Origin: an uncultured Clostridia bacterium
Lineage (GTDB): Bacteria; Bacillota; Clostridia; Christensenellales; Borkfalkiaceae
DNA: 32,288 nucleotides
NCBI GenBank assembly: GCA_944368215.1
Contig: CALVWX010000018.1
Span: 1 to 32,288, forward strand
Direction: 5' to 3'
Positions 5,824-28,162 of the stretch are shown here, piece by piece (the first letter of the stretch is position 1; each line of letters opens with the position of its first letter). The notes beneath the pieces were generated by a model. That model was given only the letters and a program-made list of their open reading frames with translations. It did no database searches and was not told the origin of the DNA. Both the position numbers and the translations under genes were made by a program.

Positions 5824-6891
5824 TTAAAAAATTGTTTTTCTATTAACTATACTATATAAATTTCCGCTAAAAATCAAGTCATTTTTGCAATAAATTTCAA
5901 GTCTGCCGACCATATCGCCCTGATTTATTTTCGTTGCATCGTTTGTACGTATGCATTTTACTGTTATTTCCTGTTCTTTTTCTATGAGAAGATTTATATC
6001 TTCACCGATATTGCAGGGAAGTCCGCCGCACATAAATACGGCCGAGCCGCTTACCGTTCTTAGCGCGTAATTTTTGAAGGCGTTTTCGATAAGTTTTCCG
6101 CTCCTTTCGTACATGTCGGGACAGTTTAAAACGACGCAGACTACGTCCATGCCTTCCCTCTCTGCGGACGAAACAAGGCATCTTCCCGCCTTCATCGTAT
6201 ACCCTGTCTTAACGCCGTTTGCGCCTTCGACGAGCGAGAGCATTTTATTTTTATTGACAAAACTTCTGTATTCGCCCGTATAGCTGCGCGTTGAAACTAT
6301 TTTTCTGAACTGTTCGTTTTTCATGGCTTCACAGGCAATCAGGCACAAATCGTGCGCCGTCGTGTAGTGGTCGTCGTCCGGCAGGCCGCTGGGATTGGTA
6401 AAATGCGTATTTTCCGCTCCCGCTTGCACCGCGCGCTCGTTCATAGCCTGTGCGAATTGCGACGTGCTTCCGCTGTGATAGATCGCCAGCGCCACGGCGC
6501 TGTCGTTGCCCGAGCGTAACATGAGCCCGTAAAGCAAATCTTTTATGGAAATTTTATCGCCGTGCTTCAGATAAATGCTTGAACCCTCGGTTCCGACGGC
6601 TTCGGCCGGTACGGTAATCACGTCGGATATATCGCAATCCTCAAGGATTATGAGAGCCGTCATGATTTTTGTCGTGCTGGCCATGGGAAGCTTCGCCCCG
6701 TCGTTGCGGCTGTACAAAGTGCTCCCTGTGGAGAGTTCCATCACGCACTCGGCGCGGCCGTCGGCGAAAGCAGCGTTTTTGTTCGGCTCCGGCAGGAGAA
6801 ATACTGCCAGCAAAAGAGCGCATGCGACGGCGAGAATTTTAGTTATCCGTGATGCTGCGCACAAGTTCGCCCGTCTTTTCGATGAGTGCAT
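5824..6891 (-). CDS. dacB: Sporulation-type D-alanyl-D-alanine carboxypeptidase (DacB-like)
   Basis: A 355-residue S11 peptidase (penicillin-binding protein 5 family), exported and acting on peptidoglycan stem peptides. A signal segment (about 16-43) ends near AFA. Catalytic motifs are S72-T-T-K75, S127-G-N129 and K228-T-G230, followed by a C-terminal beta domain. It lies between gerW and rluB, where B. subtilis and clostridia carry dacB, the spore-cortex enzyme; spmA/spmB, which usually follow, are absent. The ATG overlaps the end of gerW by 53 nt and has GGAGG about 12 nt upstream, suggesting coupling. DacB and DacF cannot be separated by motif; the name rests on gene order. Confidence 0.88.
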   Translation of the reverse strand: MHSSKRRANLCAASRITKILAVACALLLAVFLLPEPNKNAAFADGRAECVMELSTGSTLYSRNDGAKLPMASTTKIMTALIILEDCDISDVITVPAEAVGTEGSSIYLKHGDKISIKDLLYGLMLRSGNDSAVALAIYHSGSTSQFAQAMNERAVQAGAENTHFTNPSGLPDDDHYTTAHDLCLIACEAMKNEQFRKIVSTRSYTGEYRSFVNKNKMLSLVEGANGVKTGYTMKAGRCLVSSAEREGMDVVCVVLNCPDMYERSGKLIENAFKNYALRTVSGSAVFMCGGLPCNIGEDINLLIEKEQEITVKCIRTNDATKINQGDMVGRLEIYCKNDLIFSGNLYSIVNRKTIF

Positions 6892-7213
6892 TTACAGGCT
6901 CGTCCTCCATTTTTAAAAGTCGGCATTCCCTGCCGTCGTCGACGAGAAAGCCCCTGGGTTTAACAGTAACCACGGAACCGTTGCCGCCAGCGAGCTTGAA
7001 TCCGTCGGTCTCCCTGAACGTCTTAATGTCGCCGTACTCTCCTCCGCCGCCTATATTTACGACGGTGATAGAAGTGAGAGGTATGACCTGCGCGCCGCTC
7101 ACCGTTATTATCGGACGGCCTATGACTGTATTGGCATCGGCCACCTTTTCAATGGGCAATGTCGGCTTGTCGTATTCGTTTGTTTTGTGTCTGTCATTTT
7201 TTAATCTGTTCAT
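6839..7213 (-). CDS. gerW: Spore protein GerW/YtfJ family
   Basis: A 124-residue Spore_YtfJ-family protein. The core ANTVIGRPIITVSGAQVIPLTS, a glycine-rich turn (GGGGEYGD) and the segment GSVVTVKPRGFLV match the family pattern. In B. subtilis this forespore protein affects germination. It overlaps the upstream DUF2953 gene by 20 nt and the downstream dacB-like gene by 53 nt, so the three form one tight operon, apparently driven by the sigma-G-like promoter at 7730-7759. Confidence 0.85.
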   Translation of the reverse strand: MNRLKNDRHKTNEYDKPTLPIEKVADANTVIGRPIITVSGAQVIPLTSITVVNIGGGGEYGDIKTFRETDGFKLAGGNGSVVTVKPRGFLVDDGRECRLLKMEDEPVNALIEKTGELVRSITDN

Positions 7214-7724
7214 ACATTTTTTCCATCATCAAAATAAACATTATTTTAATTGCGGCGAGCAGGTTTATTACGCCGGAAATTTTAGCGTAATATACCACGC
7301 CGTCATGTTCCCTGTTTAAAATAATGTAATTTTTTAATTTTATATTCCCGCCGTTGAGCGTTGCAAAAGAGTATACCGCCTGCGTTACCGCATTCTGTGC
7401 CACGGCGGCATATGCCCCGCCTTGTCCGGCTATGCCGTAATCGCCAAGCTGAATTATCTTTGTCACGCTGAGATTATTATAAATTTTAAGCATGTTGCTC
7501 TTAAAAAAGCCGGCGTCGATATCTTTATCTTTGCCGTTGACATGCATTCTTCTCACCGAATGCGCGACGGTGTTGACATTAAATACCCTGATAAAGCGGT
7601 ATAACGCAACGTTAACGCTTGCGTATTTTTCGACGGAATTAAAATAAATATAATTATCGATGTGCAGCGGAAAGAGAATTATTGCTAAACTTACGGTGAC
7701 CGCAATAACAATTAAGCTGTTCAC
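7194..7724 (-). CDS. DUF2953 membrane protein of the gerW operon
   Basis: A DUF2953-type protein, commonly found next to gerW in clostridia; its function is unknown to me. I place the start at the GTG at 7724 (176 residues), which gives an N-terminal membrane anchor beginning MNSLIVIAVTVSLAIILF. The frame continues 12 codons further to a TTG at 7760, but that TTG has no ribosome binding site and overlaps the -35 element of a sigma-G-like promoter. That promoter puts the start codon 5 nt after the -10, as in spoIVB and the dacF-like gene. Near the C-terminus a second hydrophobic stretch (INLLAAIKIMFILMM) precedes the overlap with gerW. Confidence 0.78.
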   Translation of the reverse strand: MNSLIVIAVTVSLAIILFPLHIDNYIYFNSVEKYASVNVALYRFIRVFNVNTVAHSVRRMHVNGKDKDIDAGFFKSNMLKIYNNLSVTKIIQLGDYGIAGQGGAYAAVAQNAVTQAVYSFATLNGGNIKLKNYIILNREHDGVVYYAKISGVINLLAAIKIMFILMMEKMYEQIKK

Positions 7725-7729
7725 ACCAT

Positions 7730-7759
7730 TATTATCTGTAAGAATTGTAAAAATATTCA
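7730..7759 (-). promoter_or_regulatory. Sigma-G-like promoter, leaderless, DUF2953-gerW-dacB
   Basis: Minus strand: TGAATA (7754-7759), exactly 17 nt, GATAATA (7730-7736), 5 nt, GTG start at 7724. This fits the forespore pattern gnATr-N17/18-cAtnnTa except for the first -10 base. With so little room the transcript would begin at or next to the start codon. Confidence 0.6.
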
Positions 7760-7778
7760 AAAAAAATTGTATATGCCG

Positions 7779-7806
7779 TTGACAAATGCAATTTAGCGCG
7801 TATAAT
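7779..7806 (+). promoter_or_regulatory. Strong sigma-A promoter of the alcohol dehydrogenase
   Basis: Perfect TTGACA (7779-7784), 16 nt, perfect TATAAT (7801-7806). The leader is about 70 nt. It is divergent from the DUF2953 promoter, only 20 nt away. Confidence 0.88.
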
Positions 7807-7882
7807 AATTTGTGGTAATCGATAAATAAATATCAATTAGACTACCGAATCAAATAAATACACAAACGGAGGATTTTATTTT

Positions 7883-9097
7883 ATGGCAAGATTTACGCTT
7901 CCCCGCGATATTTATCACGGCAAAGGTGTAATGAGTGAAGTTCTGGCGGAACTTAAAGGCAAAAAAGCAATTATAGTAACGGGCGGCAGCTCGATGCGCA
8001 AGGGCGGCTTTATCGACAAGGCCGAAAAGGCTCTTAAAAAGGCCAAGATGGAAGTTTACGTGCTCGAAGGCGTTGAACCAGACCCCTCTGTCACGACGGT
8101 AATGAATGGCGCAAAGATTATGCAGGAATTCTGCCCCGACTGGATTATTGCAATCGGCGGTGGCTCCCCCATCGACGCGGCAAAGGCCATGTGGGCGTTC
8201 TACGAATATCCCGACGTAACGTTTGAAGCGCTTTGCATACCCTTCAACTTCCCCGAACTCAGAAAAAAAGCTCACTTCGTTGCAATTCCCTCCACTTCGG
8301 GAACGGCCACAGAAGTTACGGCATTCTCTGTCATAACCGATTATGACAAAGGCATAAAATATCCTCTCGCTGACTTCAATATCACGCCCGACATCGGTAT
8401 TATAGACTATGAACTCGTCGAAAGCCTGCCCCCCAAGCAGGTCGCTTACACCGGTCTCGACGCACTCACCCACGCAATCGAAGCTTATGTTTCCACAGCG
8501 GCATGCAACTTCACCGACGGCCTCGCCCTGCACGCCATCAAGCTTATTTTCGAAAATCTTAAAAATTCGTACGACGGCGACATGAAGGCGCGCGGCGTAA
8601 TGCACGACGCGCAGTGCCTTGCAGGCATGGCTTTCTCCAACGCTCTCCTCGGCATTGTACACTCCATGGCACACAAATCGGGCGCCGTGTTTAAGGAAAA
8701 CGGCGAAACCATACATATCGTTCACGGCTGCGCCAACGCTATGTACCTGCCCAAGGTTATAGAATATAACGCAAAGAATCTGCGCGCAAAGAAGCGCTAT
8801 ACAGAGATTGCTTCTCTGCTCGGCATCAAAGGCGGCTCGCAGGCGGCTAAAGTGCAGAATCTCATCAAGGCAATCTGCGAACTGCGCGCATCCGTAAACG
8901 TTCCTTCCTGCATAAAGGATTACGATGACGGTCGTGGCAGAAAGATTTCTGAAGAGCTCTTCCTCTCCAAGCTCGAAAAGATGGCAGACGACGCCATAGG
9001 CGATGCCTGCACGGGCTCCAATCCAAGAATACCCACCCATGACGAAATGGTAAAGCTTTACAAGGCTTGCTATTACGACACCAAAGTAGATTTCTGA
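7883..9097 (+). CDS. Iron-containing (group III) alcohol dehydrogenase
   Basis: A 404-residue Fe-ADH. The N-terminal half binds NAD(P)H, with GGGSPIDAAK at 92-101 and STSGTATEVT at 137-146. Metal-ligand candidates by family position are D193, H197 (DALTHAIEAY), H264 (MAHKSG) and H281 (HGCANA). It resembles the alcohol dehydrogenase half of AdhE and clostridial butanol dehydrogenases, so a fermentative role reducing acetaldehyde or butyraldehyde is likely; substrate and cofactor are not determined. GGAGGA lies 9 nt before the ATG. It sits alone on the plus strand between scpB and the gerW operon, with a near-consensus promoter, which suggests high expression. Confidence 0.93.
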   Translation: MARFTLPRDIYHGKGVMSEVLAELKGKKAIIVTGGSSMRKGGFIDKAEKALKKAKMEVYVLEGVEPDPSVTTVMNGAKIMQEFCPDWIIAIGGGSPIDAAKAMWAFYEYPDVTFEALCIPFNFPELRKKAHFVAIPSTSGTATEVTAFSVITDYDKGIKYPLADFNITPDIGIIDYELVESLPPKQVAYTGLDALTHAIEAYVSTAACNFTDGLALHAIKLIFENLKNSYDGDMKARGVMHDAQCLAGMAFSNALLGIVHSMAHKSGAVFKENGETIHIVHGCANAMYLPKVIEYNAKNLRAKKRYTEIASLLGIKGGSQAAKVQNLIKAICELRASVNVPSCIKDYDDGRGRKISEELFLSKLEKMADDAIGDACTGSNPRIPTHDEMVKLYKACYYDTKVDF

Positions 9098-9116
9098 TAG
9101 GATTAATAACATGTAA

Positions 9117-9145
9117 GGCGGCGCGTTGCATTGCAACGCGCCGCC
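9117..9145. terminator. GC-rich hairpin between adh and scpB ends
   Basis: A perfect 13-bp stem, arms GGCGGCGCGTTGC/GCAACGCGCCGCC, with a 3-nt loop, between convergent genes. Neither side has a T-run, so it is an atypical terminator or an mRNA 3'-end protector. Confidence 0.6.
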
Positions 9146-9188
9146 GAAACTTTGAATCAAACCTTTGCAGCAAAAATGCCGGCTTTTT

Positions 9189-9920
9189 TTACTTTATTTC
9201 TATAATATCGTCGTCTTCGCCGTCGAGGTGTTCGGGCAGCTCATAGCCGTCCTCCGTAACCTTGGGCTCACGCTTTACGGGCTTTTCGCTCTTTGCCTGC
9301 TTGTCCTTAAGGTCGGGATCGTTTTCTTCCGAATACTCGTCTTTATGATAGAGATAATTGCTGTCCTCTTCGTCGAGAATGGAACTGTTAATCTCCGCTA
9401 TCTGTGCCATCAGTTCGTCGTAATCGGGCAAGTCTTCAAGCGAGTTGAGTTTGAACCTCTTTAAAAAGTTGTCTGTCGTTGCATACAGAATAGGTTTGCC
9501 CACGGCGTCCTTTCTGCCGCACGGAACAATCATGTCGAGGTCCAGAAGGGTATGTATTGCATAATCGCAGCTGACCTGCCTTATCTCTTCAAGCTCGCCC
9601 TTTGTGACGGGCTGTTTATATGCTATAAGGGCGGCGCACTCAAGTATCGTCTTGGTGAATTCCTTTTCCTTGATAGGCTGCAGCACGGATGAAATCTGCT
9701 GTTTATAGGCAGGATTAGTAGCGAACTGAATTTTGCCGTTAAAAGTAAGCAGCTGAATTCCGCTGTCGCCGGAGTATTTTTGTTTGAGCTCGTCAATGCA
9801 GGCATTGACTTCCTTAAGCGAGCAACCGAGCTTTTCTATTATGAACTTTACCTGAACGGCATCGCCAGAAGCAAAGGCGACGGCCTCAATTATATTCGTC
9901 AAATTGTTCAAGGTCCACAT
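9189..9920 (-). CDS. scpB: Segregation and condensation protein B (ScpB)
   Basis: A 243-residue ScpB, the winged-helix partner of ScpA that links SMC heads in the condensin complex. The two winged-helix domains span about 1-170, with the conserved LECAALIAYKQPVTKGELEEIR segment near 95-115. A long acidic, lysine-rich tail (about 185-243) goes beyond the usual core and is probably disordered. It overlaps scpA by 35 nt. The ATG at 9920 has its Shine-Dalgarno directly adjacent, while the in-frame TTG at 9911 has AAAGG at a better distance, so the real start may be three codons later. Confidence 0.93.
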   Translation of the reverse strand: MWTLNNLTNIIEAVAFASGDAVQVKFIIEKLGCSLKEVNACIDELKQKYSGDSGIQLLTFNGKIQFATNPAYKQQISSVLQPIKEKEFTKTILECAALIAYKQPVTKGELEEIRQVSCDYAIHTLLDLDMIVPCGRKDAVGKPILYATTDNFLKRFKLNSLEDLPDYDELMAQIAEINSSILDEEDSNYLYHKDEYSEENDPDLKDKQAKSEKPVKREPKVTEDGYELPEHLDGEDDDIIEIK

Positions 9921-10704
9921 CCTTTAAATCCGATTCCGGATTGCGTTTGATAATAATAGTCCCGAAAGTTTTCTGCTGTTCGACGAGTATGTACTGATAT
10001 TTTAACATTTCGAGCAGTGCCTGAAAAGTAGTGATTACTTCATTTTTTGAAAAACTGGTAAAAAGCTGTTCAAACTCTATCTGATCCTTGTCGACCAGCG
10101 CATCGCCGATAAATTTGACCTTCTCTTCTACGGTAAACTCGTCCTTGGGAATTTCCTTGACGTTGTCCTTTTCGCGCTGCATGCTCTCGTTTCTGAGGAG
10201 AAGTTTGGCAAACGCGTCGAGCATGGCCGTAACACTGAAATCAGTATAGACTATTTTTACTTCGCTGAAATCTTTCGAAGGCGGCTTGAAATAAAAGCCC
10301 ACCGTTTCCAGTTCCCTGAGTTGCGGCGTCTTTTCTTTTATGAGCTCGAATTCGCGCTGGCGGAGCTGTTCGATGAGCGCCTGTTTTTCTTCGTCATCGC
10401 CCCCCATCTCTTCGCCGGCGACCTCTATGGCAGGCACCATGGCGTTGGACTTAATATAGACGATGCGCGCCGCCATGGCGAGGTATTCACTCTCCTTGTC
10501 CACGTTGCGCGAAGGCTGGGTTTTCATGTATTCGATATAATCGAGGAACTGCTCGGTTACTTTGGACACGAAAATATCCTCGATCTTTATCTGCGCTATA
10601 TTTATGAGGTGCAGAAGAAGGTCGAGCGGGCCCTCGAAGTCGTCTAAAACAGTGTTGTAGTCGACGACCGATTCAAAGTTGGAATAGTCTTTTATAGTTG
10701 TCAT
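9886..10704 (-). CDS. scpA: Segregation and condensation protein A (ScpA)
   Basis: A 272-residue ScpA kleisin. The N-terminal segment DDFEGPLDLLLHLINIAQIKIEDI is the family signature that contacts the SMC neck, and the C-terminal winged helix (about 195-260) binds the SMC head. I use the ATG at 10704, which overlaps the stop of the M50 protease gene as ATGA and implies coupling; a GTG seven codons earlier is possible but has no ribosome binding site. Order M50-scpA-scpB is common in clostridia. Confidence 0.94.
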   Translation of the reverse strand: MTTIKDYSNFESVVDYNTVLDDFEGPLDLLLHLINIAQIKIEDIFVSKVTEQFLDYIEYMKTQPSRNVDKESEYLAMAARIVYIKSNAMVPAIEVAGEEMGGDDEEKQALIEQLRQREFELIKEKTPQLRELETVGFYFKPPSKDFSEVKIVYTDFSVTAMLDAFAKLLLRNESMQREKDNVKEIPKDEFTVEEKVKFIGDALVDKDQIEFEQLFTSFSKNEVITTFQALLEMLKYQYILVEQQKTFGTIIIKRNPESDLKDVDLEQFDEYN

Positions 10705-11414
10705 AAAGTCAGAATCCAGCCCCACGCCGCTTTTATGGGATAACCGATAATATCGGTGGCGAAGTACATTATATAACCCAAAATATCAAAATATCCCGCC
10801 CAGCCCACATAGCGCGAAAGTATGTCGCAGATAAAACTTTCAACTATGAGAATAATTAAAATCATCTGACCGTAGTTGCGCAGAAAGCGCCTTACGGGAT
10901 TGAACTGCCGCGTGCACGATTCGACTACTCTGAACCCGTCGAGCGGATATAAAGGCAGAAGATTGAACACAAAAACGGACAGGGAATAAGCAAAAATATT
11001 GCCGAGCGTAAAGTAAACAAACCAGCCGAGATAATACGTAAAGTCGTTTACCGAGAGCATTGGATTGAACGCAAAGCGCACAAACAAGGCAAACAGAAGA
11101 TATGCAAAAAAAGCAATAATATAATTTACGACTACTCCCGCTATTGCCGTCAAAAAAAGTCCTTTGCGGTAATTTTTGAAATTATACGGATTTATCGGAA
11201 CGGGCTTGGCCCAGCCGAAACCTACGAGGGCGCAACAGACAAAACCCACCGGATCGAGGTGTTTTATGGGGTTCAAAGTCAGTCTGCCATATGCTTTGGG
11301 CGTACCGTCGCCGCATTTGGTAGCTGCGAAAGCGTGTCCCCATTCATGCGGAGCGAGCACGAAGATGACTGCCACCACTCCCGCAAGCAGATTAATCAAA
11401 TCTAAAATTGTCAT
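10701..11414 (-). CDS. Site-2 protease family (M50) membrane metalloprotease
   Basis: A 237-residue polytopic protein with the zinc motif H23-E24-W-G-H27 in the first membrane segment and the second ligand motif in NLLPLYPLDG (D159). The compact family lacks a PDZ domain and is usually found beside lysA or scpA in Firmicutes; the substrate is unknown. It is not SpoIVFB by position, since no SpoIVFA partner is present. Its ATG overlaps the lysA stop by one base (TAATG), with AAAGG 8 nt upstream inside lysA. Confidence 0.9.
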   Translation of the reverse strand: MTILDLINLLAGVVAVIFVLAPHEWGHAFAATKCGDGTPKAYGRLTLNPIKHLDPVGFVCCALVGFGWAKPVPINPYNFKNYRKGLFLTAIAGVVVNYIIAFFAYLLFALFVRFAFNPMLSVNDFTYYLGWFVYFTLGNIFAYSLSVFVFNLLPLYPLDGFRVVESCTRQFNPVRRFLRNYGQMILIILIVESFICDILSRYVGWAGYFDILGYIMYFATDIIGYPIKAAWGWILTL

Positions 11415-12739
11415 TATTTAAGCCTTTCGGGGATGACGTCGTTGCGGACGATATCCTCATAGGTCTGTTTTTTGATAATTGTTTCCGCCTTTCCGTCGTT
11501 GACGAGAATTGCCTGAGGAATAAAATTGCGGTTGTAATTACTCGCCATGGAGTAATTGTAAGCGCCTGTAGAAAGCACGGCGATGATATCGCCGCTCTTG
11601 ACATCGGGCATTGGCACGTCCACTGCGATAATGTCGCCGCTTTCGCAACATTTGCCCGCAATGGTTACCTTCTGCGTGCAGGGCGCGTTCATGTCCCCGG
11701 CCGCAACTACAGTATATCTGGACTGATAGAGTGCGTATCTCGGATTATCGAACATGCCTCCGTCTACCGCCAAGTAAGTTTTGATGCCAGGAATTTCCTT
11801 TATGGCGCCGGCTGTATAAAGCGTAATGCCGGCTTCGCCTACTATCGAACGACCGGGTTCAAGTGCAATAAAGGGGCGGCTGAGCCCGAGTTCGCCGGCT
11901 TTTGCCTTGATTTCGTCGCAGAGCGCTTTGAGATAATCTGAATAATCTTTGCTCGTCAGTTTGGGGTCTTCGTCCGTATAATAAATACCGAAACCTCCGC
12001 CGATGTTGAGCACTTCCGCTTCGAAACCCGTCGAATTTTTGATTGCGGCTATAAAGTTCATCATCTTGTCGGCCGCGAGCACAAAGGACTGCTTTTCGAA
12101 AATCTGAGAGCCGATATGGCAATGGAAGCCCTTAAGAGCGATATTTTCCTTTGAAAGTACGTATTTTGTGATATCTTCGGCCGTTCCGTTGGCGATGGAG
12201 AAACCGAATTTGCTGTCGGGGGTGGCAGTCTGCACGTAGGCGTGCGTGTGAGCTTCGACGCCGGGGTTAATGCGGATGAGCACGCTTTGCTTTACGCCCT
12301 TCTCACCGCATATCTTTTCGAGTCTGTCCGCTTCGAGATAAGAATCGACGACTATCGTACCGACGCCGCTTTGCACTGCATATTCCAGCTCTTCGGGCGT
12401 TTTGTTGTTGCCGTGCATATAAATTTTATCTGCGGGAAAACCAGCCGACAATGCGGTGTAAAGCTCGCCGCCCGACACGACGTCCACGCCTATTCCTTCA
12501 CTTTTTGCTATCTTGTATATCGCCTTGCACGAAAACGCCTTTGAGGCGTAAAGAACTATGCCCTTTCCGTCATAATTTTCTGCAAGAGACTTTGTGTATG
12601 TGTTCATCATTTTGCGGATATACGCCTCGTCGAAGACATAAAGGGGCGTTCCGAACTGCTTTGCAAGTTCAACCGCGTCGCAGCCGCCTATTTCGAGATG
12701 GCCGAGCGAGTTGACTTTAAGCGTGCTTCTTTGGTTCAT
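11414..12739 (-). CDS. lysA: Diaminopimelate decarboxylase
   Basis: A 441-residue fold-III PLP enzyme that converts meso-diaminopimelate to lysine, the last step of lysine synthesis. PLP lysine is K67 (YASK), followed by H206/H208 (HCHIGS), the glycine loop NIGGGFG (245-251), EPGR (294-297) and the CESGD motif (365-369) contributed to the neighbouring active site. Shine-Dalgarno AGAGG is 9 nt before the ATG. Its promoter lies inside the terminator of the preceding dacF-like gene. No lysine riboswitch is present: the 97-nt gap is too short. Confidence 0.96.
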   Translation of the reverse strand: MNQRSTLKVNSLGHLEIGGCDAVELAKQFGTPLYVFDEAYIRKMMNTYTKSLAENYDGKGIVLYASKAFSCKAIYKIAKSEGIGVDVVSGGELYTALSAGFPADKIYMHGNNKTPEELEYAVQSGVGTIVVDSYLEADRLEKICGEKGVKQSVLIRINPGVEAHTHAYVQTATPDSKFGFSIANGTAEDITKYVLSKENIALKGFHCHIGSQIFEKQSFVLAADKMMNFIAAIKNSTGFEAEVLNIGGGFGIYYTDEDPKLTSKDYSDYLKALCDEIKAKAGELGLSRPFIALEPGRSIVGEAGITLYTAGAIKEIPGIKTYLAVDGGMFDNPRYALYQSRYTVVAAGDMNAPCTQKVTIAGKCCESGDIIAVDVPMPDVKSGDIIAVLSTGAYNYSMASNYNRNFIPQAILVNDGKAETIIKKQTYEDIVRNDVIPERLK

Positions 12740-12740
12740 T

Positions 12741-12788
12741 AAAAAAGACCTCTGGAAAAATAATTATATAATTATTTTACCAAAGGTC
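12741..12788 (-). terminator. Terminator of dacF-like gene overlapping the lysA start region
   Basis: Long imperfect inverted repeat: GACCT, TGG and an 11-bp AT core pair with their complements, 19 of 21 pairs matched (12747-12767 with 12768-12788). On the minus strand six T follow at once, then the lysA ATG. A transcript from upstream forms the whole hairpin, which also hides the lysA ribosome binding site in its 3' arm. Confidence 0.8.
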
Positions 12789-12802
12789 GTAAATTTAGTC
12801 AA
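12774..12802 (-). promoter_or_regulatory. lysA promoter, inside the terminator
   Basis: Minus strand: TTGACT (12797-12802), 17 nt, TAAAAT (12774-12779). The -10 is in the 5' arm of the 12741-12788 hairpin, so a transcript from here carries only the 3' arm and keeps the ribosome binding site open. Confidence 0.7.
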
Positions 12803-12836
12803 ATGATTTACACAACATATAGTATGGACGGTTATT

Positions 12837-13994
12837 TTACAGACACCAGTTGTCGGCTATTTTTTTCCAGTTATCCGCATAACCCGCTTTTTCAACCCCC
12901 TCTGCACAGACGAGGGCAACGCTGTCGCACAGAACTCCGTTTTTATATACTTCTATTTTTCCTACTTCATCGCCCTTATCAAGCGGAGCCTTTGCGGACG
13001 AAGTTATCACGTTGAATGTTATATCAGGATTTTCTCCGCGCGGGCAGAACACAAAACAGTCGCGCTCGGGTCTTATGCTTACGCTGTCCTTCTTTCCCAT
13101 GCTTACAGACAGCTTATCGTTGAGGTTGACGTTCCTGTCGAGAACCATTTTATTCATGAAATTGGCAAAGCCGTAGTTGAAAAGGCTGACCGTCGAATCG
13201 AATCTGTCGTCGCTCGTATTGCCGCCGAGCACGACCGATACAAGCCTTAAGTTATCTTTTATCGCCGTCGCAGCCAGACAGAACCCCGCCTCATTCGTGA
13301 AACCCGTCTTGCCGCCGTCGCAGAAAGAATACTTTCTTATCAGCTTGTTTGTGTTGGTCATCGACGTCACCCTGTCGTCGGGGTGTTCGAAATTTTCAAG
13401 CCAAATCCTGCTGTATTCAAAATACTTTTCGTGGTTGATGAGGTTGGCAAACATTACGGCAACATCCCTCGCACACGAATATTGCGTGCTGCCGGGCAAA
13501 CCAGTGCAGTTTGCAAAAAGCGTATCGGCACAGCCGAGTTCCTCCGCTTTTTTGTTCATCGCGGCGACAAAACTTTCCTCGCTACCGCTGACAGCTTCCG
13601 ACAAGGCAACGCAGCTGTCGTTGGCTGAGCAGACAACGATAGATTTTATAAGCTGGCTGACAGGGTATTCGAGCCCGCCGTCCAGAAATACCTGCGAACC
13701 GCCCATTCCCGCCGCGCGGTCAGAAACGGTAACTTTTCCGTCTATATCCAGTTTCCCCTCATCGGCGGCATCCAGAATGAGAGTAAGCGTCATCACTTTG
13801 CAGACGCTGGCAATAGGCATATGAGCCTTTGCGTTTTCTTCATAAATTATTTCGCCCGAGTAGGCGTCCATAAGGCAAGCGCTTTTGCATCCCGATGTAA
13901 GCGAAGCGTCCGCATTTGCCTGCGGAGCCTTTGCCGCAATAAATGCATATGTGCAAGATGCCGCGGCGAGTGTAATAGCCAAAAGTTTTTTCAT
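12837..13994 (-). CDS. dacF: Sporulation-type D-alanyl-D-alanine carboxypeptidase (DacF-like)
   Basis: A 385-residue S11 peptidase with a signal peptide (MKKLLAITLAAAS..., cut after about residue 28). Motifs: S62-V-C-K65 (IASVCKVMT), S-A-N in place of S-G-N (VVCSANDS), and KTG in GGKTGFTNEAG. It trims the terminal D-Ala from peptidoglycan, here probably for the spore wall. The SAN variant of motif 2 is worth noting. The frame extends 30 codons upstream but that part is AT-rich; the ATG at 13994 begins a good signal peptide. There is no Shine-Dalgarno; instead a sigma-G-like -10 ends 5 nt before the ATG. The name rests on position near spoIVB and is tentative. Confidence 0.87.
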   Translation of the reverse strand: MKKLLAITLAAASCTYAFIAAKAPQANADASLTSGCKSACLMDAYSGEIIYEENAKAHMPIASVCKVMTLTLILDAADEGKLDIDGKVTVSDRAAGMGGSQVFLDGGLEYPVSQLIKSIVVCSANDSCVALSEAVSGSEESFVAAMNKKAEELGCADTLFANCTGLPGSTQYSCARDVAVMFANLINHEKYFEYSRIWLENFEHPDDRVTSMTNTNKLIRKYSFCDGGKTGFTNEAGFCLAATAIKDNLRLVSVVLGGNTSDDRFDSTVSLFNYGFANFMNKMVLDRNVNLNDKLSVSMGKKDSVSIRPERDCFVFCPRGENPDITFNVITSSAKAPLDKGDEVGKIEVYKNGVLCDSVALVCAEGVEKAGYADNWKKIADNWCL

Positions 13995-13999
13995 GCTAA

Positions 14000-14029
14000 T
14001 ATTTTGGGAAAATACGGGCAAATTATGCG
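14000..14029 (-). promoter_or_regulatory. Sigma-G-like promoter, leaderless, dacF-like gene
   Basis: Minus strand: CGCATA (14024-14029), 17 nt, CAAAATA (14000-14006), 5 nt (TTAGC), ATG. It fits gnATr-N17/18-cAtnnTa in all but one base, and the geometry is the same as at 7730-7759 and 15667-15696. Confidence 0.6.
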
Positions 14030-14076
14030 CACATTCTAAAAAAGCATTTTCATGATTAGAAATTGTAAAAACATAC

Positions 14077-14619
14077 TTAAACAATGACGATAAGTATTCT
14101 GAAAATAATATTCAAAAGAATTAATAAAAGCGCGCAATTTGCAAGCGCGGCAACTGCCGGATAAAAAAATACATACTTTTTATTTATGCATCTGCACGTT
14201 TCGGCAACAAACCAGCACGTTATAAAAGAAGCGATAAAACAGGGAATGAAAATAATCAAGGCGGCCATTACACCGCTGAATCCGAGACAGCCGAACAGAA
14301 CGGCGCAATAAAATACGCATATAAGCGTTCTGAAAAATGCAATTATGCAGGTCAGAATTTTAAACTTGGTAAAATACGCTATTGAAAAAAAGGCATAAAT
14401 GTAGCACAGCTCTTTCAGAAGATGGGAGATAAACAATCTGCCGTTATTAAATTCAAACACGCAAACGACATAGTCTTCGGCATATCCTACAAAGAATGTG
14501 CCGATATTTGCGATTTTATATAGTACTACGCCACATATAATTGCTGCTATAAATGTACAAATCAGCCATATAAAGTAGTTCTTATCCCATTTTACATTAT
14601 TTAAAGACAAAATCCTCAT
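14077..14619 (-). CDS. Multi-pass membrane protein, possibly SpoIIM-like
   Basis: A 180-residue hydrophobic protein with about five membrane segments (near 17-37, 66-83, 87-107, 108-138 and 150-180). The order of segments and a GFSGV...P helix resemble SpoIIM, the septal peptidoglycan hydrolase scaffold of engulfment, and its place between spoIVB and a dacF-like gene would suit that, but there is no decisive motif. The start is uncertain: the ATG at 14619 lies inside the 3' arm of the hairpin after spoIVB and has no Shine-Dalgarno. It may be read through from spoIVB. Confidence 0.55.
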   Translation of the reverse strand: MRILSLNNVKWDKNYFIWLICTFIAAIICGVVLYKIANIGTFFVGYAEDYVVCVFEFNNGRLFISHLLKELCYIYAFFSIAYFTKFKILTCIIAFFRTLICVFYCAVLFGCLGFSGVMAALIIFIPCFIASFITCWFVAETCRCINKKYVFFYPAVAALANCALLLILLNIIFRILIVIV

Positions 14620-14638
14620 ATAAAAATATATGAGGATT
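14611..14638 (-). terminator. Hairpin after spoIVB, containing the next start codon
   Basis: A perfect 12-bp AT-rich stem AATCCTCATATA/TATATGAGGATT with a loop of four bases, 6 nt after the spoIVB stop, then TTGTCTTT on the minus strand. The U-tract is weak. The ATG of the membrane protein is in the 3' arm, so folding would hide it. Confidence 0.5.
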
Positions 14639-14644
14639 TATTAT

Positions 14645-15661
14645 TTAATATGAGTTCAACATTTTATCTATAGCTATTCCGTATCCCCTCGTCGGGTCGT
14701 TGACAAAGACATGAGTCACGGCGCCTATCAGTTTACCGTTCTGCACGATGGGACTGCCGCTCATTCCCTGCACTATTCCGCCTGAAAGGTTTATTAAGTC
14801 CTCGTCGTCAATTCTTATAACAAAGTTGCGGTTTTCCTTATTAAACGCATCGACTTTTACAATACTTATATCGTATTCCACGGTTTTATTATTTTCTACA
14901 GTGGAATAAATTGTGGCTTTGCCCATTTCAGCTTCGCTGATGTTTGCCGTTTTAATTTTTCTGAGGCCTTCCGTATCGAGTTCTGAAGACACCTTGCCGA
15001 ACACGCCGCAACTGCAATTTGTTGAAGCCGCGCCTATCATATAATTGCTCTCGATACTGCCTTTAAGCTCTCCTGGATTGCCCCTCAACCCCTTTTTTAC
15101 ACCATAAATTGCGCAGGTGTAAATTGTGCCGCCGTTTATCTGCATAATGTTCTTAGAACTATCCGTAACCGGATGGCCGAGCGCAGCTATCACACCTTTT
15201 GTTTTATCCACAAAAGTTACAGTACCTATTCCGTTTACACTGTCTTTGACAAGCATTCCCAGCTTTTTCTGTCCCGATGCCCTGTCTGTTACGGGCGTAG
15301 CGTGCAATGCAAGCTGTTCGCCGCCGCGCGTTATTGTAATGGTATAGCTTTTGTACGGCGCGGACAGCGCTTTATTTAAATCGTCGGCGGCGTCTATTTT
15401 TATATCGTTTATACTTTCGATTATGTCGCCTGCCTTTATGCCGCAATCGCGGGCGGGACTGGAAATACCCTCGTCAGACAAGATGTCGCAGAGCCCCACC
15501 ACTTCTACAGTTTTTGTATTCAGAACAAAACCTGCGGCAAATCCGCCGAGGTAAATTTCACGTTCGTCAGCATAGACTGTAACGGTAGAAAATGAAATAC
15601 AGCAGACAAGCACGCACAACAGCACGAGCAACGCCCTTTTGAACTTTTCGGAATAATGCAT
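14645..15661 (-). CDS. spoIVB: SpoIVB signalling serine peptidase
   Basis: A 338-residue S55 peptidase secreted from the forespore, which in B. subtilis cuts SpoIVFA and so starts pro-sigma-K processing in the mother cell. An N-terminal membrane/signal segment (about 10-31) is followed by a PDZ domain (about 40-125) and the peptidase domain. The catalytic set by family pattern is H163 (ALGHPVTD), D288 and S303 in GGIVQGMSGSPIV. The usual neighbour spo0A is missing downstream. There is no ribosome binding site; a sigma-G-like promoter ends 5 nt before the ATG, in line with forespore expression. Confidence 0.94.
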   Translation of the reverse strand: MHYSEKFKRALLVLLCVLVCCISFSTVTVYADEREIYLGGFAAGFVLNTKTVEVVGLCDILSDEGISSPARDCGIKAGDIIESINDIKIDAADDLNKALSAPYKSYTITITRGGEQLALHATPVTDRASGQKKLGMLVKDSVNGIGTVTFVDKTKGVIAALGHPVTDSSKNIMQINGGTIYTCAIYGVKKGLRGNPGELKGSIESNYMIGAASTNCSCGVFGKVSSELDTEGLRKIKTANISEAEMGKATIYSTVENNKTVEYDISIVKVDAFNKENRNFVIRIDDEDLINLSGGIVQGMSGSPIVQNGKLIGAVTHVFVNDPTRGYGIAIDKMLNSY

Positions 15662-15666
15662 ACAGT

Positions 15667-15696
15667 TATTGTGTGCATATCGCCGCTTACTATTCA
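15667..15696 (-). promoter_or_regulatory. Sigma-G-like promoter, leaderless, spoIVB
   Basis: Minus strand: TGAATA (15691-15696), 17 nt, CACAATA (15667-15673), 5 nt (ACTGT), ATG. spoIVB is a known sigma-F/sigma-G gene in B. subtilis, which supports the call. Confidence 0.65.
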
Positions 15697-17898: not shown

Positions 17899-18711
17899 TT
17901 ATTTACTCCAGATGTTGAGTTTGATAAGTAATTTATTAAAGAAATTATTATTGAACGAGGTTATGAAACCTACTTTGAAATTGGCTTTGGTGACCGAAAT
18001 ATTGTCAATTTCGCAAACGCAATCGACGGCGATTCCGTCCACCACCACGTTGATTGCTCCCCTGCTGTCGGTACGAGTAAGCGTCAGAGTTGACTTGTCG
18101 CTATAGACCACGGGACGGGAATGCAGCGAATGTGCGCATATCGGCGTCATGATAAACGCTTCAATATCGGGAGTCAGAATAGAGCCGCCCGCAGCGAGAG
18201 AATAGGCCGTTGAACCTGTAGGCGTACTGACGATAAGCCCGTCCGCCGTGTAATTGTCGACCACCGCGCCGTCTATCGCCGCGCGCAGATTAATTGTGTT
18301 GGAAAACTGGTTTCCAGACGTGCAACGCTGGATAACAAGATCATTTAAGGCATAATACTGCTTGTCGGCGTAAGCAATTTTAAGCATGCTCCTTTCCTCA
18401 AGCTTATAATTGCCAGTACAAATCATGTCTATTGCGGCGTCGAGTTTTTCCGGTTCAAACTCGGCGAGGAACCCCGTGTGTCCGTAATTTATTCCGATAA
18501 TCTTTACGTTGCGGCGCGCACATTCCGAAGCCATGTTCAGAATTGTCCCGTCACCGCCGAACACCATCAGAACGTCGAGCCCGTCCAGATCAGTCGGACC
18601 TCTGACGATTACATAGTCGCTTACTTTGTTGCGGAGCGCGGCGATTACGTTTTCAACATAATCCCTTTTGCCGCAATACGACTTTTTAAAATACAGACCC
18701 ACCTTAATCAT
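17899..18711 (-). CDS. nadK: NAD kinase
   Basis: A 270-residue NAD kinase, making NADP from NAD and ATP in the cytoplasm. The phosphate-binding GGDGT is at 52-56, followed by the ALND motif and STPTGSTAYSLAAGG. The start is the ATG at 18711 (MIKVGLYFKKS); an in-frame TTG 12 codons earlier lies in the -35 box and is rejected. There is no Shine-Dalgarno, and a strong promoter ends 7 nt before the ATG, predicting a leaderless mRNA for nadK-argR-recN. Confidence 0.95.
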   Translation of the reverse strand: MIKVGLYFKKSYCGKRDYVENVIAALRNKVSDYVIVRGPTDLDGLDVLMVFGGDGTILNMASECARRNVKIIGINYGHTGFLAEFEPEKLDAAIDMICTGNYKLEERSMLKIAYADKQYYALNDLVIQRCTSGNQFSNTINLRAAIDGAVVDNYTADGLIVSTPTGSTAYSLAAGGSILTPDIEAFIMTPICAHSLHSRPVVYSDKSTLTLTRTDSRGAINVVVDGIAVDCVCEIDNISVTKANFKVGFITSFNNNFFNKLLIKLNIWSK

Positions 18712-18718
18712 ATGAATA

Positions 18719-18747
18719 ATTATACCACCAAATATACAAATATGCAA
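18719..18747 (-). promoter_or_regulatory. nadK-argR-recN promoter, predicted leaderless
   Basis: Minus strand: TTGCAT (18742-18747), 17 nt, TATAAT (18719-18724), preceded by TGG as an extended -10. The ATG follows after 7 nt, where the transcript itself should start. Confidence 0.75.
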
Positions 18748-18784
18748 GAAAAGTACGCTAAATATTTATAATTTAACGTACTTT
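18746..18784 (-). terminator. Terminator of tlyA
   Basis: Inverted repeat AAAGTACG-TAAAT with one mismatch and a 7-nt loop (18750-18763 with 18771-18784). The 5' arm is formed by the last codons of tlyA; a short T-run follows and merges with the nadK -35 box. Confidence 0.75.
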
Positions 18785-26859: not shown

Positions 26860-27284
26860 TATGCAAGTAAAACGGCTATGAGAATGCCTATCATCAACGC
26901 TATTTTAATGTACAGGGAGCTGTGTTTTTTATAGTTTTCCCCGCTCTCCTCCATCATTTTTTTTATGGCCGGCTTGCGCTCGTTGAGATAATCGATTTGC
27001 GATACACTGTCGCTCACGCCGATATTTTTTACGTAATCGCTTAAAAACTGCCCGTCGGCCCCGCCAAGCACGCGTCTGCCGGCCAAAATATCCGGTATGA
27101 ATTTGAAATCCGCCGCAACCTGCGACAAGCGCATTTTCCCGAACTTTAAATTTATAAGCATGCGCTCGTTGAATTCATACAGTTCGGCAAAGACTGCAGC
27201 GCGCTTCTTTTTATCGGACGAAAGGAGCACCCCTATCGCCGTCGTCGCCGCAATTATCGCGCACAATATCAAAATTTTTATCAT
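26859..27284 (-). CDS. spoIIIAB: Stage III sporulation protein AB
   Basis: A 141-residue protein with an N-terminal and a C-terminal membrane helix and a GspF-like helical middle. Conserved features are the L-I-N-L-K-F-G-K-M-x-L-S segment and S-L-Y-I-K-I-A-L-M-I-G near the end. Its start lies 74 nt inside spoIIIAA, with AAAGG 9 nt before the ATG. Confidence 0.92.
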   Translation of the reverse strand: MIKILILCAIIAATTAIGVLLSSDKKKRAAVFAELYEFNERMLINLKFGKMRLSQVAADFKFIPDILAGRRVLGGADGQFLSDYVKNIGVSDSVSQIDYLNERKPAIKKMMEESGENYKKHSSLYIKIALMIGILIAVLLA

Positions 27285-28110
27285 AAATTACGACCTTTTT
27301 GCCGATGCCCGTCAGGCGGCAGAAATAATCGAAAGGCATGCTTTTTAAAATATTCTCGTCCGTCACATGGGTAGACGCGCACACCGCGATGCCGCAGTCG
27401 GCGGCATACCTGACCGCCGCGATATCATTCGGCCCGTAGAGCTCGTCCGTAACGATGACCTGCGGCTTCATGGCCCTAATCGCGCAGGCAAAGGCGGAAA
27501 GTTTGTCCCCGCCGCGCACTATATCGCACCTCTCGCCTAAGTTGTAGCCATCACCGTCGCAATCGGCGGCCGAAATTTCGTCGCGTTCGTCAAATATCAG
27601 AACATTGTAGCGCGCGCCCAGCCTGCGCGCGAGATCGCGCAGCATTGTCGTTTTCCCGAACCCTGGAGGCGAAAAGATGAGCACGCTCCTGGCGCCAGGT
27701 TTCTGGGTTGTCCCAAAAATATCGTCCGCACATCCGACTATGTCATGCGGTATTCTGATATTGAGCGAAGTTACACACCTGACTGCGTTTATGCTCCCGT
27801 TTTGAGTGACATACTGCCCGGCAACGCCTATTCTCACGCCGCCGTCGAGTGTGACGTAAGCGTTTTTCAGCTGTTCCGTATAAGCGTAGACGCCGTCTGA
27901 AATTGCCGAAGACAGCAGCCCGTCCACATCGTAGACGCGCAGGGCTTCGGACGGATTTTTACATGCGCCGAATTTATTTATATATTCATATTCCCCGCGG
28001 TATTCAATTATGACAGGCTGTCCCCGCCTTATCCTTATTTCCGTAAGGAAATTGATATTTAGGCAATCTATCGCCCTCTTCAGTTCCATCGGCAAAAATT
28101 TGAGGTTCAC
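27211..28110 (-). CDS. spoIIIAA: Stage III sporulation protein AA (ATPase)
   Basis: A 299-residue secretion-type ATPase, the motor of the SpoIIIA-SpoIIQ channel. Walker A SPPGFGKTT (147-155), FDERDEI (173-179), Walker B VIVTDE (218-223). I use the GTG at 28110, as the FLP before Met8 aligns with the start of the B. subtilis protein, but neither this GTG nor the ATG at 28089 has a Shine-Dalgarno. A sigma-E-like pair (AAATATT, 15 nt, CAAATTTT) ends 5 nt before the ATG at 28089, so a leaderless start there is possible. Confidence 0.92.
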   Translation of the reverse strand: MNLKFLPMELKRAIDCLNINFLTEIRIRRGQPVIIEYRGEYEYINKFGACKNPSEALRVYDVDGLLSSAISDGVYAYTEQLKNAYVTLDGGVRIGVAGQYVTQNGSINAVRCVTSLNIRIPHDIVGCADDIFGTTQKPGARSVLIFSPPGFGKTTMLRDLARRLGARYNVLIFDERDEISAADCDGDGYNLGERCDIVRGGDKLSAFACAIRAMKPQVIVTDELYGPNDIAAVRYAADCGIAVCASTHVTDENILKSMPFDYFCRLTGIGKKVVIYDKNFDIVRDNCGDDGDRGAPFVR

Positions 28111-28132
28111 ACTTTAAAATATTTAAAAGGGC

Positions 28133-28162
28133 ATAAAAAAAGACCGCCAAAAGGCGGTCTTT
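28133..28162 (-). terminator. Intrinsic terminator of htpG
   Basis: A 10-bp stem AAAGACCGCC/GGCGGTCTTT with a loop of four A; on the minus strand a T-run follows. Confidence 0.93.

Follow-up and report, generated by a model that had tools for sequence, protein, structure and literature searches.

The question raised by the locus described here is where the transcripts of three sporulation units begin. The locus lies in a stretch of 32,288 nucleotides from an uncultured Clostridia bacterium of the Borkfalkiaceae (contig CALVWX010000018.1; the whole stretch is referred to as the window), and its units are headed by spoIVB, by a dacF-like gene and by the first gene of the gerW operon. Each is preceded by a promoter-like pair of elements that ends five nucleotides before the start codon. 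A sequence-only reading had taken this arrangement for the mark of leaderless mRNAs made under one developmental sigma factor. The analysis reported below makes it likely that the three units are indeed produced as leaderless mRNAs from sigma-G/F-type promoters; the tie to a single sigma factor was not upheld.

Promoter-to-start arrangements in the window

The source genome, 92 percent complete at 1.67 Mb in 46 contigs, carries the three units with the following features.

14645..15661, minus strand: spoIVB coding sequence (SpoIVB peptidase, PDZ and S55 domains), ATG at 15661; Pfam PF05580 at 1.5e-69, NCBIfam TIGR02860 at 2.4e-89 (300.1 bits against a cut-off of 305.25)
15691..15696, minus strand: spoIVB -35 element TGAATA, read from the sequence; GNATA in 30/30 genus loci
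15667..15673, minus strand: spoIVB -10 element CACAATA, placed 5 nt before the ATG; all 30 rows carry A(-11) and T(-7)
12837..13994, minus strand: dacF-like D-Ala-D-Ala carboxypeptidase gene (S11 and PBP5_C domains), ATG at 13994; Pfam PF00768 and PF07943
14024..14029, minus strand: dacF-like -35 element CGCATA, read from the sequence
14000..14006, minus strand: dacF-like -10 element CAAAATA, placed 5 nt before the ATG; several orthologues have CATACTA
7194..7724, minus strand: first gene of the gerW operon ("DUF2953"), GTG at 7724; matched in 47/61 genus genomes
7754..7759, minus strand: gerW operon -35 element TGAATA, from the sequence and the genus loci
7730..7736, minus strand: gerW operon -10 element GATAATA within the conserved TTACAnATAATA, 5 nt from the GTG, from the sequence and the genus loci
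6839..7213, minus strand: gerW (YtfJ family), second gene of the operon; PF09579 at 1.3e-9, over the cut-off, and NCBIfam TIGR02874 at 6.6e-14 (52.3 bits against a cut-off of 116.3)
5824..6891, minus strand: dacB-like S11 peptidase gene, third gene of the operon; PF00768 at 2.4e-55

The three arrangements read TGAATA-17-CACAATA-5-ATG ahead of spoIVB, CGCATA-17-CAAAATA-5-ATG ahead of the dacF-like gene and TGAATA-17-GATAATA-5-GTG ahead of DUF2953-gerW. That they share one geometry to the base, as had been claimed, was confirmed by direct reading and by a pattern search of the whole genome, which found them again at C18:7722-7758, 13992-14028 and 15659-15695. It was likewise confirmed that a Shine-Dalgarno (SD) sequence is absent from all three starts. 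The name dacF is that of the earlier reader, the S11 and PBP5_C domains coming from Pfam; the name DUF2953, used here as a label, could not be confirmed since the gene matches no Pfam or NCBIfam family. The NCBIfam equivalog scores of SpoIVB, GerW, SpoIIIAA and NadK are below their cut-offs, and their Pfam scores are above.

Sigma-F and sigma-G share the consensus GNATR-N17/18-CAnnnTA, and such promoters stand ahead of spoIVB, dacF-like and spoVA genes in Bacillus and Clostridium. The fit to this consensus that had been proposed for all three units holds for spoIVB and the dacF-like gene, whose orthologues reach CACAATA or CATACTA and match it, and is weaker for DUF2953, whose box is GATAATA or AATAATA. 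SigG- and SigF-type factors are encoded in the source genome; their best NCBIfam matches are SigG (L003) and the SigF/SigG family (L005), with scores above the SigB/F/G subfamily cut-off and below the SigG and SigF equivalog cut-offs. SigA, SigE and SigK were each found above a cut-off of their own family.

Conservation within the genus

The genus sample comprised 61 genomes, and for each gene the best-scoring 30 loci were read: spoIVB from 30 of 48 genomes in which it was found, DUF2953 from 30 of 47, spoIIIAA from 30 of 51 and nadK from 30 of 36. The dacF rows are the 24 of the 30 spoIVB loci that have a usable dacF start; the other six have none. GNATA, a spacer of 17-18 nt and a -10 box precede spoIVB in all 30 loci, with a gap of 5 between box and ATG in 24 and a gap of 8 in six. 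The six gap-8 loci have a G six bases past the box and, counted from the ATG, also A(-11) and T(-7), as AATACTA, AATACTT or GATAATA at gap 5, so that +1 would be either the ATG or 3 nt earlier. DUF2953 follows the promoter rule with gap 5 in 29/30 loci. The dacF-like gene, which lies downstream of spoIVB in the same loci, has gap 5 in 17/24, gap 4 or 6 in four and no motif call in three, and A(-11) and T(-7) in 22/24.

A column profile showed that A(-11) and T(-7) are invariant in the spoIVB and DUF2953 sets, and that T at -1, a pyrimidine position, occurs in 100 percent of the spoIVB and 87 percent of the DUF2953 rows. The register of the elements to the start codon is thus fixed, while neighbouring columns have drifted. 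In the usual numbering, -10 boxes carry -11A and -7T, and +1 would therefore be the first base of the start codon. The background of the promoter-plus-gap-5 rule was determined from the 4314 ATG and GTG triplets on both strands of the 30 spoIVB loci. The rule is obeyed at 44 of them, of which about 41 (by subtraction) are the spoIVB and dacF starts themselves; this leaves 3 of about 4270, near 0.1 percent.

No SD was found at any of these genus starts (0/30 spoIVB, 0/30 DUF2953, 0/24 dacF; 0/84 in total). It could be supposed that these starts are mis-assigned and that the real start is an in-frame codon farther downstream, preceded by an SD of its own, as many rows do have an in-frame TTG, GTG or ATG within the first 20 codons or so. 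However, among in-frame starts from +3 to +87 an SD was found in 0/30 spoIVB, 0/30 DUF2953 and 1/24 dacF rows (1/84 in total), which makes mis-assignment very improbable. The earlier proposal of leaderless mRNAs made from forespore-type promoters thus appears sound for the three units, given the conserved geometry and the SigG/SigF-type factors encoded.

Sister lineages and the change of leader state

The comparison was extended to 80 named relatives obtained by a search with 12 genus sequences. Six loci of this set, L149-L154, belong to the focal group, judged by their geometry and an identity of 54-79 percent. In ten sister loci (L155-L160, L162, L163, L165 and L167; L157 is Candidatus Borkfalkia faecipullorum), the sigma-G-like motif lies 17-40 nt upstream of spoIVB and an SD stands 4-7 nt before its start; in L159, L162 and L167 that start is a TTG, picked by its SD. 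Outside the genus at least 20/68 spoIVB rows have an SD, a lower bound because the start was roughly chosen there as the nearest ATG or GTG. On a SpoIVB tree of 56 rows, with leader labels assigned by the analyst and unclear rows excluded, there is a single change of leader state, on the branch leading to the genus (Shimodaira-Hasegawa-like approximate likelihood ratio support 99). The dacF pattern in the sisters is different: in L155 and L165 a box stands 5 nt from the ATG by eye and the -35 element fails the rule, and outside the genus an SD precedes dacF in 11/15 rows. Because of this difference from spoIVB, the changes of leader seem to have gone gene by gene.

These loci also bear on the view that the mRNAs do have leaders, made from promoters farther upstream and translated independently of an SD, and that the -10-like boxes are something else. 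In its favour, 103 of 305 genes of the source genome, about a third, have no SD at any candidate start. The remaining 202/305 have a match of at least four bases at some candidate start, and a stricter count gave 148 of 383 genes that look first in their unit; the assertion that most vegetative genes here have an SD is thus only roughly right. Both gene sets were taken from a simple open reading frame (ORF) caller, with spurious frames among them. Against hidden leaders stand the register fixed to the start codon beside drifting columns, the fit of the element to the sigma-F/G consensus, and the matching element that precedes SD-bearing leaders in the sisters. Leaders of this kind are hence considered improbable.

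Genome-wide and genus-wide pattern searches

The sequence-only reading had suggested that the motif be sought across the genome. With a loose pattern (gaps 3-7), 51 matches were found in the whole source genome and 27 with the reversed pattern; many loose matches are therefore chance. These 27 would be the argument for regarding the three like geometries as chance too. However, the arrangement is kept among the 24 to 30 genomes that were read for each gene, and the background lies near 0.1 percent; chance is thereby refuted and can be given practically no credence.

A tight pattern left three gap-5 matches in the source genome, namely spoIVB, dacF and a 26-codon ORF (L077, on C31) whose stop codon overlaps the spoVAC start. 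A small ORF before spoVAC was recognisable in 30 other loci read (by eye; two were translated), and in most of them it appears to come directly after another reading frame and not to be a unit head. It has about 26-31 codons and an RRDERES-like core (L309-L338). SpoVAC/SpoVAEB-family genes occur in 56/61 genus genomes.

In the 61 genomes, 397 pattern matches were obtained against 177 for the reversed pattern. Among the 150 of the 397 that were listed, gap 5 accounts for 26 and gap 6 for 24; the 13 other gaps average 7.7, with a maximum of 15 at gap 0, a count inflated by ATAATG overlaps. Nineteen of the 26 listed gap-5 matches are at spoIVB (10), dacF (3) and spoVA operon heads (6). Five of the 19 were assigned by position or shared first gene. 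The ten spoIVB matches were assigned by the coordinates of the spoIVB search and one dacF by position, and of the spoVA heads two were read next to spoVAC, two placed by their distance from spoVAC and two by a short-chain dehydrogenase first gene. The seven remaining are ORFs of 123 and 138 codons without a family match, two small ORFs and three spurious-looking matches. Of the nine gap-6 matches (among 24) that were traced further, one belongs to a dacF-like gene and the majority resemble chance. The short-chain dehydrogenase gene with a gap-5 sigma-G-like promoter was seen in L379:341-1138, where it lies directly upstream of spoVAC, and in L369 and L370.

Other sporulation and vegetative genes

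The window contains two further genes of use for comparison.

27211..28110, minus strand: spoIIIAA, mother-cell comparison gene, GTG start without SD; PF19568 at 3.4e-42, NCBIfam TIGR02858 at 7.2e-51 (below the cut-off); matched in 51/61 genus genomes
28116..28123, minus strand: sigma-E-like -10 element of spoIIIAA, AATATTTT, 5 nt from the GTG
28136-28145, minus strand: -35-like element of spoIIIAA, GGTCTTTTTT, overlapping the T-run of a terminator-like hairpin
17899..18711, minus strand: nadK (NAD kinase), vegetative; PF01513 and PF20143
18719-18724, minus strand: TATAAT, 7 nt from the nadK ATG, a near-leaderless sigma-A-type start

In model organisms spoIIIAA is a mother-cell gene. It has no SD in 30/30 genus loci read, and a conserved G[TG]TCTTTTTT / AATAnnTT pair ends 5 nt from its start. 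In many genus members the -35-like element coincides with the T-run of a hairpin that resembles a terminator, and some members keep the GTTCT core without the hairpin. In the source genome yunB has a sigma-E-type CATATAAT, which stands 5 nt before the ATG. These two genes carry the sigma-E claim, because a position weight matrix (PWM) scan for leaderless genes of the sigma-E type found no more than in the reversed sequence (15 against 17, at score 8). A 180-aa gene between spoIVB and dacF (14080-14619) also has a sigma-E-like box at gap 5; it was left uncounted, as there is an apparent terminator hairpin there.

The sigma-F-type promoter of spoIIR lies 7 nt from an ATG without SD in 12/30 genus loci, the source genome included, and its box lies 21-46 nt from an ATG with SD in 9/30. 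The remainder are one gap-7 variant without SD, five variant boxes with SD, two long gaps without an SD call and one row cut short, with merely 11 nt upstream. Leader and SD are coupled at this gene. On the spoIVB tree, in which ten of these genomes are present, the state of spoIIR changes twice if the row cut short is counted as short.

Among vegetative genes, nadK has TATAAT 6-9 nt from its ATG in 25/30 genus loci. At 18712-18750 of the window, TTGCATATTTGCATA-like repeats, which we take to resemble ARG boxes, overlap the nadK promoter, and a presumably ArgR-like ORF follows nadK. In 740 kb of the source genome, TATAAT-like boxes peak at gap 6, with 19 of the 383 unit-first-like genes; the other gaps average 6.9 and reach 12 at most. 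None of the 19 has an SD, and one of them is DUF2953. Two smaller mixed sets, in which a few gene neighbourhoods predominate, do not show the peak (2/250 genes in genus loci and 4/263 in outside loci). Leaderless or near-leaderless starts are thus found with sigma-F-type (spoIIR), sigma-E-type (spoIIIAA, yunB) and vegetative (nadK) promoters, and the proposed tie to one forespore sigma factor therefore fails; leaderlessness confined to the forespore was ruled out by spoIIIAA, yunB and nadK.

In the source genome, spoIIAA has an SD; spoIIGA lacks one and has TATAAT at 10 nt from the ATG; spoVAD, with CGCATA-17-CATACTG-7-ATG, has a predicted 2-nt leader; and cwlD is ambiguous, its TAGTATA lying either 4 nt before a GTG or 10 nt before an ATG. 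The spoVAD and yunB genes are divergent, and both promoters lie within a 58-bp gap (L389:2944-3001), in which the spoVAD side appears sigma-G-like with its 2-nt leader and the yunB side appears sigma-E-like and leaderless. Of the late sporulation units examined in this genome, a list in part found by the motif, 8/11 are leaderless or nearly so (DUF2953, spoIVB, dacF, the spoVAC leader ORF, spoVAD, spoIIR, spoIIIAA and yunB); the others are sigG and sigK, with SD or SD-like sequences, and cwlD. Among those met independently of both the original observation and the motif the figure is 4/6 (spoIIIAA, spoIIR, spoVAD and yunB; not sigG and sigK).

These figures have to be set against the explanation that the starts reflect a general leaderless habit of a small 1.67 Mb genome with short intergenic gaps and nothing developmental. 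The near-leaderless nadK and the gap-6 peak of SD-free TATAAT-like genes speak for such a habit. The vegetative excess, however, is just a few percent, whereas most of the late units are leaderless or nearly so. This comparison, with its small numbers, is only suggestive of an enrichment in late sporulation units, and a general habit is a real possibility, if one short of an even chance.

The alpha/beta small acid-soluble spore protein genes (PF00269), wanted as classical sigma-G controls, were found in 0/61 genomes; in the source genome this absence goes with the presence of sigma-F, G, E and K genes. The spoIVA gene was not found in the source genome and is patchy elsewhere (24/41 over the cut-off).

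Weighing of the evidence and proposed mechanism

Several observations weigh against leaderless transcription of the three units from sigma-G/F-type promoters. Close relatives are over-represented among the genus loci, because the best-scoring 30 per search were read. The -10 box of DUF2953 (GATAATA) is also sigma-A-box-like. Outside the genus, no spoIVB motif was found by the same rule in 55/68 rows; among the near sisters, L161 has an SD and no motif call, and L164, L166, L168 and L198 have the motif and no SD call. When 740 kb of the source genome were scanned with a fixed-spacer PWM, no match outside the window was convincing as a leaderless sigma-G gene: the two other matches above 13 were an ORF of 20 codons and an ATG lying within a longer frame, and the spoVAC leader ORF, with its spacer of 18, was missed. 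A strong SD precedes spoIVA in 22/22 orthologues of relatives read (of 24; two partial matches over the cut-off were left out), and sigG in the source genome has an SD. The sigK leader there, AAAGGGGGA, is SD-like under the wider motif list only, the stricter matcher having scored sigK without SD. The last three genes also undercut a tie to one sigma factor.

With these points taken into account, leaderless transcription of the three units is still regarded as the likely reading. RNA polymerase with sigma-G (or sigma-F) would bind the -35/-10 pair and begin transcription at the first base of the start codon; the ribosome would then have to load on a 5'-terminal AUG or GUG without an SD, possibly by a 70S-type initiation. 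In the simplest account, in which the direction is taken from the outgroups, the ancestor of the genus would have lost a short SD-bearing spoIVB leader and kept the promoter. Other late sporulation units, under promoters of the sigma-F, sigma-G and sigma-E types, may have changed in a like manner, gene by gene, as may a small share of the vegetative units.

A broader proposal is that late sporulation in this genus is a leaderless translational regime, in which leaders were lost from most sigma-F/G and many sigma-E units because late ribosomes prefer 5'-terminal (70S-type) starts. This is thought rather unlikely. If true, the regime would be an added translational gate on the developmental programme, and the split in spoIIR would represent a transition in progress. 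The spoIVB, dacF-like, gerW, spoVA and spoIIIA units with their precise, putatively leaderless starts, beside sisters with a leadered spoIVB, amount to a natural experiment, which bears on leader loss and on the possible reliance of a developmental programme on SD-free initiation. Start callers that rely on the SD could misplace such starts, which may bear on annotation.

Comparison with known systems

The genus is like the sigma-F/G regulons of Bacillus and Clostridium in its GNATA-17/18-CAnnnTA promoters. It differs from them in the leader: ten sister spoIVB loci keep 17-40 nt and an SD, and these are missing in the genus.

For leaderless transcription in clostridia, no description of leaderless sporulation genes was found among the open-licence PMC literature matches listed. 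In the excerpts available of the transcription start site (TSS) maps, leaderless transcription is described as low or rare: 15 leaderless genes were reported for C. difficile (PMC7438776), about 2-3 percent for solventogenic Clostridium (PMC9045289), and 4 percent of intergenic TSS for C. phytofermentans, in genes that generally have another TSS and a ribosome-binding site (PMC5171806). Very short leaders were reported in bacilli as well, with 30 under 11 nt in B. licheniformis (PMC3871023) and 28 under 10 nt in B. amyloliquefaciens (PMC4634765), according to the passages of these papers at hand. The source genome resembles C. difficile in having SigF, SigG, SigE and SigK (PMC7438776, in part). 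Unlike what is proposed for this genus, the clostridial maps draw, in those excerpts, no link between leaderless genes and sporulation sigma factors.

In a survey of 209 Firmicutes genomes, leaderless genes were found in 56, at 4.2 percent with a range of 2.4-16.6 (Zheng et al. 2011; PMC3160421). The portions of that survey available place them mainly in Lactobacillales and Mycoplasma and associate them with TANNNT/TATAAT boxes. The likeness to the present genes lies in the distance of the -10 box, which at about 12 nt upstream makes +1 coincide with the start codon. The difference is that those boxes are of the sigma-70 type, and the late sporulation genes of these Clostridia stand behind boxes of alternative-sigma type. 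Leaderless genes of Firmicutes are thus described, in the parts of the literature covered, as rare and tied to sigma-A-type boxes, and the genus would depart from that description. Leaderless genes as such are known; their late-sporulation, alternative-sigma version in Clostridia would be a new variant.

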